Below, piece after piece: positions 680 through 20,314 of a stretch of DNA of 43,365 nucleotides. Positions within the stretch are counted from its first letter, which is position 1; every line of letters starts with the position of its first letter. The stretch spans positions 1 through 43,365 of the forward strand of contig CAJVXN010000016.1 in NCBI GenBank assembly GCA_913009335.1, read 5' to 3'. Below the pieces are notes generated by a model, which worked only from the letters and a program-made list of their open reading frames with translations, was not told where the DNA came from and did no database searches. Origin of the DNA: an uncultured bacterium. Its GTDB lineage: Bacteria > Omnitrophota > Gorgyraeia > Ghiorseimicrobiales > Ghiorseimicrobiaceae. The translations under genes and the position numbers were made by a program.

Positions 680-756
680 TGGTGGGCCCAAGAGGACTCG
701 AACCTCTGACCCCTTCCATGTCAAGGAAGTACTCTAACCAACTGAGCTATGAGCCC
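680..756 (-). tRNA. tRNA-Val (GAC), CCA encoded
   Basis: RC GGGCTCATAGCTCAGTTGGTTAGAGTACTTCCTTGACATGGAAGGGGTCAGAGGTTCGAGTCCTCTTGGGCCCACCA; cloverleaf stems pair, anticodon loop TTGACAT. Confidence 0.95.
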
Positions 757-760
757 ACAA

Positions 761-844
761 TGCCGGGGGAGGGACTTGAACCCTCAGGGCCTTGCGGCCG
801 ACGGATTTTAAGTCCGTTATGTTTGCCAATTTCATCACCCCGGC
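761..844 (-). tRNA. tRNA-Leu (TAA), long variable arm, no encoded CCA
   Basis: RC GCCGGGGTGATGAAATTGGCAAACATAACGGACTTAAAATCCGTCGGCCGCAAGGCCCTGAGGGTTCAAGTCCCTCCCCCGGCA. Confidence 0.95.
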
Positions 845-869: not shown

Positions 870-1658
870 TCAAATAACTTTGGAGGCGTGGACCGGGCTC
901 GAACCGGTGAATAGTTGTTTTGCAGACAACTCCCTTAGCCTCTTGGGTACCACGCCATATCTTATTTTATCTATAACGCTCCACTGCGGATGCTCTCTCA
1001 TAAAACTTAAATATATGTTGTATTTTCGCGATAAAAATAGATCTTCTGAAATAGAACCATAAATTACTTCTAATAATCTTATGGCTTCTCTCGTAGAATA
1101 TCTAATCTGGAACGCTCTGCTACTAAAAGATATCTTGTGTTTTCTAGCGCCGCATAATTTACTTATGGCTAATAACAACCCCTCTAAAAATAGTTTGCTG
1201 CCCGAAGTAAACACGACTGCGAGCCGCGCCTTTTTTCTATAATAGGATATGCAGCCATCGCCATCCAAATACCCTCTTATAAAATGCGGCAAATACTTAA
1301 ACGGAACATTAATAAATTTCATTGTCTTTGATTTTCGCGGTGTCAAGCCGAGACTAACTAGGTCATCAAAAATTTCATGGCTCCCGATTCGAAGCATGTA
1401 TTTTTCTTTCCGTTCATATTTTTTACCCCTACTTAAAAATGGCGGCGGATTAGTCACAACCACCCTATGCTCTGAACGCATTACTCTTTTTATCTTTTCA
1501 ATAATTTCTCCGTCGCTACTATAAAGCCTTAAATATTTACCTTTGATATATGACGCGTCTTCCAGGCTACCATCCGCAGCAATAAAGCCTAAAACATACG
1601 ACATTTCAGGTGTCCAGGTTTTAAAAAAACCTGAATTTATTTTGTACTTAACGCCCAT
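870..1658 (-). CDS. Free-standing LAGLIDADG homing endonuclease whose ORF reads through tRNA-Cys
   Basis: YVLGFIAADGSLE and FIRGYLDGDGCISYY LAGLIDADG-type motifs; C-terminal codons ...YGVVPKRLRELSAKQLFTGSSPVHAS are the translated tRNA-Cys. Confidence 0.9.
   Translation of the reverse strand: MGVKYKINSGFFKTWTPEMSYVLGFIAADGSLEDASYIKGKYLRLYSSDGEIIEKIKRVMRSEHRVVVTNPPPFLSRGKKYERKEKYMLRIGSHEIFDDLVSLGLTPRKSKTMKFINVPFKYLPHFIRGYLDGDGCISYYRKKARLAVVFTSGSKLFLEGLLLAISKLCGARKHKISFSSRAFQIRYSTREAIRLLEVIYGSISEDLFLSRKYNIYLSFMREHPQWSVIDKIRYGVVPKRLRELSAKQLFTGSSPVHASKVI
881..956 (-). tRNA. tRNA-Cys (GCA), CCA encoded
   Basis: RC GGCGTGGTACCCAAGAGGCTAAGGGAGTTGTCTGCAAAACAACTATTCACCGGTTCGAGCCCGGTCCACGCCTCCA; U73 discriminator, anticodon loop CTGCAAA. 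Confidence 0.95.
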
Positions 1659-2274
1659 TTTTCTTTATCTCGTTTTTTACCGCTTTAATAATATCTTCTA
1701 CTGCGGCCAGACAACCCTCCCCTGTCTTGCCACAAGCTAGCTTGCCCTTCCGGGGCGGAATAAATTTATATTCTATTTTTTCTAATTTTACGATATTTTC
1801 TTTAACAATTTTATTATGATACATATTCTCATTCATCGCCGGAGCGATTAACACCTTTGAAGTTGAGGCACACACTGTAGTAGTTAATAAATCATCACAG
1901 ATACCTGCGGCAATTTTTGCAATAACGTTAGCGGTTGCAGGCGCGATTAAAATTAAACTTGCCTCATCCGCAAGAGAAATATGTTCGATCCTTCGATTTG
2001 ACTCAGGATCGAATCCTGAGCGGCTTGTGGTGAGCGAAGCCGAACCAAGTCGAATGGATTCGATGTCCGAATACTCGCGCCCGGCAAACATATCCCGATA
2101 AACCCTGCCTCCGGAAAGAGTCGCAAGTGTTAAAGAAGTAATAAATGCTTCTGCCTCTTTAGTCATTATTACGGACACAGCAAAACTTTCTTCTCGAAGC
2201 CTTCTTATAATATCGCCCGCCTTATATGCCGCAATGCTTCCGCTTACCCCTAGAATTATTTTTTTCTGCTTCAC
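1648..2274 (-). CDS. coaC: Phosphopantothenoylcysteine decarboxylase (CoaC/Dfp N-terminal half)
   Basis: GVSGSIAAYKAGDIIRRL...HISLADEASLILIAPATANVIAKIAAGICDDLLTTT...APAMNENMYHN flavoprotein motifs; no CoaB half. Confidence 0.9.
   Translation of the reverse strand: MKQKKIILGVSGSIAAYKAGDIIRRLREESFAVSVIMTKEAEAFITSLTLATLSGGRVYRDMFAGREYSDIESIRLGSASLTTSRSGFDPESNRRIEHISLADEASLILIAPATANVIAKIAAGICDDLLTTTVCASTSKVLIAPAMNENMYHNKIVKENIVKLEKIEYKFIPPRKGKLACGKTGEGCLAAVEDIIKAVKNEIKKNGR
1984..2058. repeat. 75-bp palindromic element inserted in frame in coaC
   Basis: TTCGAT direct repeats at 1984-1989 and 2059-2064; internal perfect hairpin CTCAGGAT-TCG-ATCCTGAG and imperfect terminal inverted arms; adds 25 codons between SDIE and HISLADEA. 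Confidence 0.75.
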
Positions 2275-11972: not shown

Positions 11973-15707
<3,735 letters not shown>

Positions 15708-15716
15708 TTTATAGGA

Positions 15717-18700
15717 GTGGAAAATATGTATGCTAGAGGAGAAAGAGTAATTTCGGTTTATATAGAAGAGGAAATGAAGGATTCGTATATCTCTTATGCG
15801 ATGAGTGTTATTGTTGGGCGCGCGCTTCCGGATATAAGAGACGGATTAAAGCCGGTGCATCGGCGAATTCTTTATACGATGCATGAGCTTAATCTGCGCC
15901 ATAACCAGCCATACAAGAAGAGTGCGCGTATTGTTGGTGACTGTTTTGTTAAAGACACGATGATCCTTACAGAAGAAGGGCTTGTATCTATCCAGGATGT
16001 TAAACGGGGGGATGTCGTTTATACGCAGAGAGGATGTGGGCGTGTTAGCGAACTTTATGTGATGCCTCCGAAGGAATTGTTGCGAATAGAGCTTGATAAT
16101 GGAACATATAATACGGTTACGCCGTCACAGAAAATAAAGGTTTTAAACAGCGATTTTAAGCTGGAATGGAAAGAAGCCAACAGGTTAAAAAGCGGCGATT
16201 ATATTGTGGTAAAAAGCTGTTATCCGGATATAAAACGCAAGGCAAAATTGCGGAAAACCCATTTTTTAAATCCCGGGTGTTTGAATGAAAACATTGCTTA
16301 TCTATTAGGTCTTTTTGTTTCGGAGGGGTGGATAGAAAAAAACAAACAGAGAAAAGATACCTATAGGATTAGCATTGCCTGTAATAGCCGCCAGATTATA
16401 GAAAAGGCAGCAGATATATTAATGCAGGAATTTGATTACCTAGCGAATATAGAGAAGAAGCGCTATGTATATCAAAACGCCAAGGCAGAAGAGGCGGTAA
16501 ATTATAGATATACGCTAAGGATTAATAGGGAATATATAACCAAATTTTTCATTAGTAACTTTAAAATCGCGGGCCTTAAGGCGCCCACCAAGCAAATTCC
16601 TCGCCAAATTTTTATCTCTCCTGAATCCGTTATTTATGCTTTTATATCCGGCTTGGTAGACGGCGATGGCAGCGTGCATAATAAGCGTAATACTATTCAT
16701 TATGGCTCTGTGTCGGAGAAGTTAATAAACCAACTACAAATTTTACTTCAGCATTTAGGGGTGTTCGCGGAAAAATATAGTGATGATAATTTTAAAAAGA
16801 TTCATTTTATTTGCGGCAGGAGGGTGAAGCGTAGATTACCATTTCATAGCCTGGAATTGGGAGGGGTTAATGCTAAATTGCTTGCTTCTAAGATTTCCTT
16901 GTGCCAACAGAGCAAGGAAGCAAGGCGCACCCGGATTATCAGCCAAAGATTGAAAAAGGCAGCTTTTGAGGTAGTTCCTTATGCGGGTGAAAATATATTC
17001 GCGGAATTGACCAATAAACATATAGGCGGTGGATGGTATAAATCTGCTTCCGGCGAAAAATTCCGAGCGGGAATAAAATATTCCGCGGGATCTAAGATTC
17101 GATATTCAAAAGAGCTGAGAAGTTTGCCTCTACGGAAAACACAAATTATTGAATGGGGCATTAAGGAGAAACTAGAAAAGATAAAATCACCGCTCTATGA
17201 TTTTGTAAACCACATTATAAAAGATAATATATATTTTATAAAAGTCGCCTCCATAACTAAGGCGCCCAGCCAAACTACATATGATATCCAGGTAGACGGC
17301 GACCATGAATTTATTGCCAATGGTATGGTGTCGCATAATTGCTTGGGAAAATTTCATCCCCATGGCGATACTGCGGTCTATGACGCTTTGGTGCGCATGG
17401 TGCAGGATTTTTCTTTGCGCTATCCGCTTATCGATGGCCAGGGAAATTTTGGTTCTATTGACGGGGATTCCGCTGCGGCAATGCGTTATACAGAGGCCCG
17501 AATGAGCCCTATCAGCAATGAAATGCTGCTAGACATAGAAAGAGATACTGTAAATTTCTCTCCGAATTTTGACGCTTCCTTAAAAGAGCCGGTAATTCTC
17601 CCTTCCGTATTACCTAATCTATTAATTAATGGTTCATCTGGTATTGCTGTAGGCATGGCCACTAATATTCCTCCGCACAATTTAGGCGAGGTGGTTGACG
17701 GGATAGTTTATTTGCTGGATAATCCGGATGCCGATGTGAAACAGTTAATGCGTTTAATAAAGGGGCCGGATTTTCCTACGGGGGGGGTTATTTGCGGGAA
17801 GGTTGGCATAAAAAGCGCCTATTCAACGGGGCGCGGTAAGCTTCTTGTGCGTGGAAGGGCCGCGATTGAAAGGCAGAAAAACGGAAAAGATTTAATTCTT
17901 ATAAATGAAATTCCTTACCAGGTAAATAAAACTTCTCTAATCGAGTCTATCGTGGGTTTAGTGGAAAGCAAAAGAGTAGAAGGGGTTTCGGATATCCGAG
18001 ATGAGTCGGATAAAGACGGTATGCGTATTGTTATAGAGCTAAAGCGGGGGATCGAGCCGCAGATAATATTAAATCAGCTATATAAGCATACTCAGCTTGA
18101 GACGACATACGGCACAATACTTCTTGCTTTGGTAGGGGGAAGGCCCAGAGTTTTAACCCTCAAACAAATACTCTCCGAATATATTGTTCACCGCAAGATA
18201 GTTATCCGCCGGCGCACGCAATTTGACTTAGATAAGGCTTTAAAACGCGCCCACATTTTAGAGGGTTTAAAAATTGCCATAAAGTTTCTAGACAGGATCA
18301 TAAAAACAATACGCGCATCAAAGAACACTTCGGTAGCTAAGGCCGCGTTGATGAAGAACTTTAAACTTTCTGATTTGCAGGCGCAGGCAATTTTGGAAAT
18401 GCAACTACAGAGATTAACCGCTCTTGAGCGCGATAAGTTGGACGCTGAATACGCAGAAGTTTTAAAAAAGATTGAGTTATGCCGCGCTATCCTTGCCTCG
18501 GAGGAAAAAGTCGAGAATATCATAAAAGAGGAACTAAGCGATCTTAAAAAACGTTTTGGGGATGGGCGTAGAACCGAAATAGCCGCGGAACGCGAAGAGA
18601 TAGAGGTGGAAGATTTAATCGCCGAAGAAGATATGGTAGTGACCATATCGCATGCGGGATACGTAAAGAGACTGTCGGTGTCTGCCTATCGAAAACAGCG

Positions 18701-19775
18701 TAGGGGCGGGAAAGGTAGTACCGCGATGGGCATGAGGGATGAAGATTTTATTGAGCATTTATTTGTTGCTTCAACTAAAGATTATCTGCTTGTATTTACC
18801 AATAAAGGGAAAATCTATTGGCTTAAGGCCCATGAAATTCCCCAGGCAGGCAGGACATCTAAAGGAAAAGCGGTTGTTAATCTTTTAGAGATGTCTAATG
18901 ATGAGTCAATTTCCGGAGTAATTCCCGTTAAAGACTTTTCGCCGGATAAATATCTTTTGATGATTACAAAATACGGTTTGATTAAGAAGATAGATCTAGC
19001 GGCATTTAGCAAACCAAGGCGCGCTGGAATTATCGCTTTAGGTTTAGGTAAAGATGATCAGCTTGTAGATGTACAGCTTACCGATGGAGCAGGGGAGATA
19101 CTTATTGCGACATCTCAAGGTAAGGCCATAAGATTTAAGGATGCTGATGTGCGAGACATGGGTAGAGGGGCTCGCGGTGTGCGAGGGATTAGGCTTGCAA
19201 AAAAAGATATAGTAATCGGGACAGCACTTGTAAGGCGCGATGCGACCGTTCTTACCGTAACCGAACACGGTTTTGGCAAGAGAACTGATTTTGATGAGTA
19301 TAGACAGCAGTCCAGAGGAGGCAAGGGGATTATTAATCTTAAGACCACCGAAAGAAACGGAAATGCCGTAGCATTAAAATCGGTTATTGATGATGATGAG
19401 TTGATAATGATCACGCAAAGTGGCATGTTGGTTAGGTGTGCGATTAAAGATATCCGCGCAACCGGACGTTCGACACAGGGTGTGCGCCTAATAAGATTAT
19501 CTGATAAAGATAAAGTTGCTTGCGTGGCTCGCGTTGTACCCGAAGAAGAAGATAAAGTCGAGGCATTACGAGCAAAAGAAGAAGCAGCAAGGAAAGAAGA
19601 AGGTAAGGCCGAGGAAGAAAGCGCTCCGGGGGCAGTCGAGATAGAGCAGGAGGAAAAGGAATCAGAAGAAAATAAAGTAGTAGAAACGGCAAAGGTGGAA
19701 GAAGCAGCTAAGGGGAAAAAAGAAAAACCAAAGGAAAAGACTGTTTCTAAAAGAAAAATAAAAAGGAAAAGATAA
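15717..19775 (+). CDS. gyrA: DNA gyrase subunit A precursor with intein
   Basis: [36 protein letters not shown]...KKSARIVGD // [55 protein letters not shown]; charged Lys/Glu-rich C-terminal tail. Confidence 0.98.
15942..17339 (+). mobile_element. GyrA intein (466 aa) with LAGLIDADG homing endonuclease
   Basis: Starts [37 protein letters not shown] motifs [13 protein letters not shown] and [13 protein letters not shown]; ends [23 protein letters not shown]. Confidence 0.95.
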
Positions 19776-19780
19776 ATATT

Positions 19781-19863
19781 GACCCCATCGTCTAGTATGG
19801 CTTGGGAACCCCGCCTGCGGCCACCGCCGCTGGCGGGGCAAGCGGGGCGACACCGGTTCAAAT
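19781..19863 (+). pseudogene. Truncated tRNA-Glu copy, broken after the T-loop TTCAAAT, with GC-rich palindromic anticodon arm
   Basis: GACCCCATCGTCTAGTATGG and CGACACCGGTTCAAAT are identical to intact tRNA-Glu at 20109-20183; the middle is CCCCGCCTGCGGCCACCGCCGCTGGCGGGGCAAGCGGGG; the 3' half is replaced by the GIY-YIG start codon. Confidence 0.85.
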
Positions 19864-20133
19864 ATGTTTTATGTTTACATAGTGCAAAGCTTAAAAGATA
19901 AGAGATATTATATAGGGCACACAAAGAATTTAAAGAAAAGAATAGAGGAGCATAGTAGGGGGAAATCGAAAGCCGTTCGTTATCGGGGGCCGTTTGAATT
20001 GATCTATAAAGAAATGTATCAAACAAAAAACGAAGCTTTTTATAGAGAGCGGCAGATTAAGAGTTATAAAGGTGGAGAGGCTTTTAAGAAATTATTAAGT
20101 AGAGCATTGACCCCATCGTCTAGTATGGTCTAG
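19864..20133 (+). CDS. GIY-YIG nuclease; ORF ends inside tRNA-Glu
   Basis: MFYVYIVQSLKDKRYYIGHTKNLKKRIEEHSRGKSKAVRYRGPFELIYKEMYQTKNEAFYRERQIKSYKG; C-term LTPSSSMV* is tRNA-Glu sequence. Confidence 0.88.
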   Translation: MFYVYIVQSLKDKRYYIGHTKNLKKRIEEHSRGKSKAVRYRGPFELIYKEMYQTKNEAFYRERQIKSYKGGEAFKKLLSRALTPSSSMV

Positions 20134-20183
20134 GACAAGAGCTTTTCAAGCTCTCGACACCGGTTCAAATCCGGTTGGGGTCG
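20109..20183 (+). tRNA. tRNA-Glu (TTC), no encoded CCA
   Basis: GACCCCATCGTCTAGTATGGTCTAGGACAAGAGCTTTTCAAGCTCTCGACACCGGTTCAAATCCGGTTGGGGTCG. Confidence 0.95.
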
Positions 20184-20314
20184 CTTATAAATAGAGCAGG
20201 GTAATCAAGCAGCAAAATTTTTTACTTGCTGCTTTTTACCTTTTGGAGATTAGGGCCATGTTAAAAAAAGCATTAGTAATCTTAGCAGACGGATTTGAAG
20301 AAATAGAGGCGATA
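20177..20314 (+). repeat. Direct repeat copy A: tRNA-Glu 3' end to codon 19 of the DJ-1 gene
   Basis: ggggtcg...aaagcagg...aagcagcaaaa...gctgctttttaccttttggagattag...atgttaaaaaaagcattagtaat...gaagaaatagaggcgata, nearly identical to 21531-21662. Confidence 0.9.
20207..20237 (+). terminator. Intrinsic terminator after tRNA-Glu
   Basis: AAGCAGCAA-attttttac-TTGCTGCTT + T-tract. Confidence 0.7.

Follow-up and report, generated by a model that had tools for sequence, protein, structure and literature searches.

On the reverse strand of the 43,365-nucleotide stretch of Omnitrophota DNA analysed here (the window), an ORF encoding a LAGLIDADG nuclease runs on without a stop through an intact tRNA-Cys gene. 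This raises the question of whether the tRNA-encoded end is a part of the protein and, if not, what holds the two genes together. From sequence comparison, the window gene is likely a free-standing homing endonuclease of a tRNA-specialised family that restores or replaces the tRNA it invades, each clade being devoted to one tRNA or isoacceptor, here tRNA-Cys(GCA). The source genome assembly comprises 1.88 Mb in 67 contigs; the relevant features of the window are collected in Table 1.

Table 1. Features of the window discussed in the text
Feature	Position	Strand	Basis or remark
LAGLIDADG homing endonuclease gene (motifs LGFIAADGS, IRGYLDGDGC)	957..1658	-	Pfam, AF2, PDB fold matches
ORF read-through tail (tRNA-Cys + 11 nt)	870..956	-	not conserved, probably incidental
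Intact tRNA-Cys(GCA), putative nuclease target and shelter	881..956	-	ARAGORN; Rfam; neighbour in all close homologs
C at tRNA-Cys position 10, paired in the D-stem with G25; putative protective change	947..947	-	allele association
G at tRNA-Cys position 25, pairing with C10	932..932	-	allele association
tRNA-Leu(TAA), adjoined in related genomes by a sister nuclease clade that would target it	761..844	-	ARAGORN
tRNA-Val(GAC), end of conserved Cys-Leu-Val cluster	680..756	-	ARAGORN
coaC-type flavoprotein, conserved upstream neighbour	1648..2274	-	Pfam Flavoprotein
Partial, degenerate tRNA-Glu upstream of GIY-YIG gene	19781..19863	+	sequence comparison with 20109-20184
GIY-YIG nuclease ORF, from T-loop of partial tRNA-Glu to inside intact tRNA-Glu	19864..20133	+	
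Intact tRNA-Glu(TTC) downstream of GIY-YIG gene	20109..20184	+	ARAGORN

The ORF (870-1658, minus strand) starts with ATG, has 262 codons and terminates 11 nt past the tRNA. The ORF, its LAGLIDADG domain and the intact tRNA-Cys had been noted in a preliminary description of this DNA, and all three are confirmed by ORF calling, Pfam (LAGLIDADG_3, E=8.7e-11), ARAGORN and Rfam (complete tRNA-Cys, 58.5 bits). That description also held that the arrangement is not a tRNA intron; indeed, Rfam finds no intron within the window. The nuclease is free-standing, with its own ORF between coaC and tRNA-Cys, outside any intron or intein. AlphaFold predicts a two-motif LAGLIDADG fold (pLDDT 93, confident to about residue 231) whose folded domain spans approximately residues 1-224 and ends ahead of the tRNA. 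Its fold matches in the PDB include I-Tsp061I, I-SceI and I-DmoI; among solved structures, I-Tsp061I and further homing endonucleases and maturases come nearest. Of 103 tRNA-linked homologs, 101 retain the catalytic acid D29 and 102 retain D134, and dN/dS values of 0.06-0.18 over ten nuclease pairs reveal strong purifying selection. By its fold and catalytic acids the window protein is thus a LAGLIDADG homing endonuclease, with predicted cleavage activity.

The tail encoded by the tRNA does not appear to belong to this protein. In 91 homologs the nuclease ORF stops before the downstream tRNA in 44 cases, inside it in 38 and beyond it in only 9, so that the conserved tail looked for in homologs is not found. 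Where the stop falls inside the tRNA, its last base tends to lie at tRNA position 10, 15 or 18, the first of these being the conserved T8-A9-G10 triplet read in the right frame. Two of the three sense frames of the window tRNA-Cys are open by inspection, and the open read-through carries little weight of its own. Together with the domain end ahead of the tRNA, the scatter of stops indicates that the tail is a by-product of abutment rather than a conserved protein part. A functional role for the tail was considered and rejected, given the stop positions and the low model confidence from residue 232 (pLDDT is below 50 at residues 232-234, just ahead of the tail, which the model excludes).

The adjacency itself is another matter. 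Homologs were sampled from 285 genomes of the window's phylum and 380 of the phylum of G286, a Staskawiczbacteria MAG of the Patescibacteria. The resulting nuclease tree set holds 125 homologs from Omnitrophota, Patescibacteria and one Nitrospira MAG. In 92 of them, counting 4 intron-bearing tRNA-Asp missed by ARAGORN, a tRNA on the same strand starts directly downstream of the nuclease, where 0.4 would be expected for a random position, assuming about 45 tRNAs per 1.6 Mb. The median gap between the end of the nuclease domain and this tRNA is 33 nt. Another 11 homologs lie directly 3' of a tRNA, and 22 have a tRNA on neither side, two of these being at contig ends. A position directly 5' of a tRNA is therefore far beyond chance. 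It had been proposed that stops ahead of the tRNA in homologs would mark the read-through as fortuitous; this is borne out for the read-through, which is incidental, but not for the adjacency. Relatives on viral contigs, used as a control, adjoin a tRNA in 1/80 cases. Such contigs were considered as a reservoir and set aside: relatives are common there but distant, with 38% identity at best. Since the viral relatives are distant and not at tRNAs, they identify no vector.

Some members depart from the common arrangement. One clade (L117, L124, L126, L127, L132, L134, L136 and L138) has its nuclease genes 3' of tRNA-Leu(CAA) and not ahead of a tRNA; L127 and L138 may contain 3' tRNA fragments. 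A clade of 17 rows is situated away from tRNAs (L022, L025 and others), and two of its members come, by reading, after a DUF134-like HTH gene.

The nuclease clades track the identity of the tRNA (Cys, Leu isoacceptors, Asp, Val, Phe, Glu), not the host phylum. When the 13 tRNA labels are mapped on the nuclease tree they require 15 changes, compared with a mean of 84 for shuffled labels, and none of 200 shufflings gave a number as low. All 26 Leu-TAA members fall on one side of a branch with a support of 99, and the 13 tRNA-Cys members are grouped with a support of 79. Leu-TAG, Leu-CAG and 3'-of-Leu-CAA members form further groups; Val members are nested within the Asp group and Phe members within Leu-GAG. 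The closest relatives of the window gene precede tRNA-Cys without exception (7/7 at first, 13 in the tree), as the preliminary description had suggested should be checked, and sister clades precede other tRNAs. The host phylum, scored as three states, changes 12 times on the same tree, with Patescibacteria and Omnitrophota interleaved, indicating that the lineages cross phyla and keep their tRNA. At the N-terminus, the Asp/Val members L010, L012, L015, L016, L018 and L019 are longer by about 100 residues; this stretch looks like a helix-turn-helix, and the Cys clade lacks it.

The surroundings of the window gene allow occupied and empty sites to be compared. The order coaC, tRNA-Cys, tRNA-Leu, tRNA-Val recurs in Omnitrophota across several families. 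In the window the coaC stop overlaps the nuclease start by 11 nt; at empty sites, tRNA-Cys comes directly after coaC. Many genomes, among them two from the window's own family (L043 and L049), have no nuclease at this locus, so that the empty sites sought since the first description do exist. The locus is occupied before tRNA-Cys in the window, L004, L005 and L009, with a decayed nuclease in L057, and before tRNA-Leu by the sister clade in L052, L053, L055, L059, L060, L063 and L064. Nuclease presence on the host coaC tree requires 5 changes for 5 carriers; the window nuclease is sporadically present at a fixed site with empty alleles.

That several Omnitrophota families share this locus could be explained by a single ancient insertion before tRNA-Cys, followed by vertical inheritance, many losses and no current mobility. 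Such a history is highly improbable because six patescibacterial tRNA-Cys members (L033, L089, L091, L101, L145 and L146) are interspersed with the Omnitrophota ones in the tree, the downstream tRNA set of L033 is a different one (Cys-Leu-Arg), and tRNA alleles were replaced within one genus (L057 versus its g22 relatives). An equally slight chance is left to a domesticated protein that serves the neighbouring tRNA in processing, splicing or modification and stays adjacent through co-expression. It would account for the strong purifying selection and the fixed tRNA partner, and a maturase role is possible where partner tRNA-Asp genes contain group I introns (see below). The patchy presence with empty sites in close relatives, the nuclease remnants at L057, L141 and L158, the spread across phyla and the retention of the nuclease catalytic acids all speak against it.

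The manner in which a homing endonuclease could invade an essential tRNA gene is suggested by fragments of old tRNAs. At several loci the nuclease is flanked by two tRNA sequences of one kind, a 5' fragment directly upstream and a complete gene downstream. In L060, positions 1-31 of the native tRNA-Leu are retained upstream at 97%, and the intact downstream tRNA-Leu is a different allele. Upstream 5' tRNA-Leu fragments are also found at L131, L119, L115, L109 and L151. In L086 and L088 a tRNA-Asp fragment reaches through the anticodon (CTGTCA); the L086 contig ends before the complete tRNA. L023 is a mirror image, with a complete tRNA-Leu, the nuclease and then a 3' fragment. A reverse-strand control yielded two unrelated hits. 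Such fragments are present at a minority of the loci, and the tRNA position at which they break off varies (about 24-45), so they do not fix the cut site. A 5' tRNA-Cys fragment was sought upstream of the window's LAGLIDADG copy and is absent there, the nuclease start overlapping the coaC end. In L055, a 3' fragment of the other tRNA-Cys allele follows an intact tRNA-Cys of a different type, a sign of tRNA replacement without a nuclease remaining at that spot.

The tRNA alleles next to nucleases also differ from those elsewhere. A flipped D-stem pair, C10-G25, is found in 8/9 nuclease-bearing but in 7/84 nuclease-free Omnitrophota tRNA-Cys (Fisher 5e-7), counts that ignore relatedness and an association that stems from few independent events. 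Positions 10 and 25 are the only tRNA-Cys columns strongly associated with the nuclease, the others being weak. The exceptions are the carrier L005, which keeps G10, and the seven nuclease-free genes with C10. Three nuclease-free loci (L043, L061 and L176) have a tRNA-Cys allele almost identical to that of the window, as expected for a resistant allele left after nuclease loss. The window tRNA-Leu(TAA) allele likewise differs from the common nuclease-free allele. In intron-less patescibacterial tRNA-Asp, the canonical GCTC D-stem strand is present in 2/12 carriers versus 20/29 non-carriers (p=0.005, again ignoring relatedness; the reading of two non-carriers was shifted manually by one base to restore the register). 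When the D-stem change was compared with nuclease presence in pairs taken from the host tree, the outcome was 2:0 with 3-5 pairs, which is too few to decide and not significant alone.

These data bear on the possibility that tRNA clusters are merely tolerant landing sites for a generic free-standing nuclease, the tRNA itself being uncut. The insertions do lie in spacers and leave a complete tRNA, and one related clade is not at tRNAs. Nevertheless, this reading is unlikely, since it would not lead one to expect clade-by-clade isoacceptor specificity, strict same-strand 5' abutment, split fragments of old tRNAs or D-stem changes. The proposal of the preliminary description that the tRNA serves the nuclease as target and shelter is supported, its role as a target being suggested by the remnants, the replaced alleles and the D-stem change.

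Four tRNA-Asp(GTC) genes (L083, L092, L100 and L037) are interrupted in the anticodon loop (CTGT|CAC) by a group I intron and come directly after the nuclease gene. There, as in the window, the nuclease gene lies outside any self-splicing intron. All four intron-bearing carriers have the canonical D-stem strand.

A parallel case exists in the same window, where a GIY-YIG ORF is found at tRNA-Glu. The partial tRNA-Glu ahead of it has kept positions 1-20 and the T-arm side, its middle being a GC-rich hairpin, and it has the same form in the relatives L308-L310. Among 30 GIY-YIG relatives from the window's phylum, the window's own copy included, 17 are followed by a tRNA on their own strand (Glu, Asp, Ser, Met or Arg) and none has an opposite-strand tRNA nearby. 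Two unrelated folds thus share one architecture, GIY-YIG at tRNA-Glu and LAGLIDADG at tRNA-Cys. The convergent use of tRNA genes proposed at the outset holds more broadly than was stated then, in view of the tRNA-specific clades, the empty sites and the GIY-YIG counts. GC-rich palindromes of the ggcgggatcccgcc type lie upstream of many GIY-YIG relatives (L311, L313, L316, L318, L319, L323 and L327) and might be part of the GIY-YIG element. By reading, gyrB (11979-15707) and gyrA (15717-19775), both on the plus strand, look intein-bearing, so the contig appears to hold several homing-type elements.

We propose the following course of events. The resident tRNA gene of a nuclease-free genome would be cut within the region from the D-arm to the anticodon arm. 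Repair from a donor locus would import the nuclease gene and, with it, no less than the 5' half of the tRNA found there. This would rebuild or replace a complete tRNA downstream and strand the 5' piece of the old one upstream, where such fragments are seen in several relatives. The tRNA brought in would be altered at the target; for tRNA-Cys the main alteration would be the compensatory flip of the 10-25 pair. The observed allele association suggests that this flip, which would keep the RNA fold, spares the new locus from cutting; in the four tRNA-Asp genes the anticodon-loop intron may play the same protective part. Because the nuclease abuts the tRNA so closely, its ORF would often end in the tRNA and now and then beyond it, hence the read-through. 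Later the nuclease may decay or be lost and the resistant tRNA allele may stay, as the L057 remnant and the nuclease-free L043, L061 and L176 suggest.

On balance, we favour a still broader interpretation, with rather less assurance than for the window gene itself. A guild of minimal mobile elements, each a nuclease plus part of a tRNA and drawn from at least two unrelated folds, would home into essential tRNA genes isoacceptor by isoacceptor. Host tRNAs would be replaced by recoded, cut-resistant alleles, driving tRNA sequence turnover and spread between phyla. Homing into essential and highly conserved tRNA genes would then be routine in bacterial chromosomes, which would account for the tRNA alleles with a foreign look and the unusual D-arms of Omnitrophota and Patescibacteria. 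The family would also provide a natural set of nucleases that have switched specificity between tRNAs. Where a nuclease and a group I intron occur together at one tRNA, a stage that has been proposed in the origin of mobile introns would have been caught. The open-access literature searched holds no report of chromosomal tRNA-specific LAGLIDADG nucleases; this seems to be a widespread, apparently unreported way of parasitising essential genes in little-known bacteria.

Several known systems share part of this picture. Group I intron-encoded endonucleases that target the tRNA anticodon region share with the present family the kind of enzyme and the putative target region, but the genes described here are not located in an intron, and the majority of their partner tRNAs are intron-less. 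In the known cases of collaborative (trans) homing the targets are phage protein genes, whereas here the target would be tRNA-Asp in bacterial chromosomes. The four loci where a group I intron interrupts the putative target gene and the nuclease gene stands outside, next to it, resemble these cases (reviewed in PMC3984707) and are candidates for collaborative homing in bacterial tRNA genes. The LAGLIDADG endonucleases of CPR rRNA insertions (I-ShaI) reside inside the insertions and are mostly single-motif homodimers (PMC11270868, the main text of which does not mention tRNA). The resemblance is that LAGLIDADG proteins are common in Patescibacteria, related ones occur at the same insertion site, and they spread horizontally. 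Integrative elements with tyrosine recombinases split a tRNA gene, restore it with element-borne sequence and leave a fragment (PMC9897764); the old-tRNA fragments of several relatives would suggest something similar, though the window's LAGLIDADG copy has none. No integrase is present in our case, the unit consists of one nuclease ORF flanked by coaC and the tRNA, and it is usually the 5', not the 3', part of the tRNA that is restored.

The closest precedent is SegB of phages T4 and T6, a free-standing GIY-YIG homing endonuclease that sits beside tRNA genes, makes its cut within such genes and promotes the spread of the region (Brok-Volchanskaya 2008, cited and extended in PMC13096335). Many phage SegB homologs are near tRNAs, with no isotype preference reported, and a T-loop-like motif, RAWTSGAAC, has been described (PMC13096335); we found in that paper neither split-and-restored tRNAs nor a chromosomal family with one clade per isoacceptor. 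Like SegB, the LAGLIDADG family is free-standing and located at tRNA genes. The two differ in that SegB is a GIY-YIG enzyme of phage genomes and the window gene is a chromosomal LAGLIDADG_3 member. The GIY-YIG gene of the window, which begins in a T-loop, may be nearer to SegB than the LAGLIDADG gene is.
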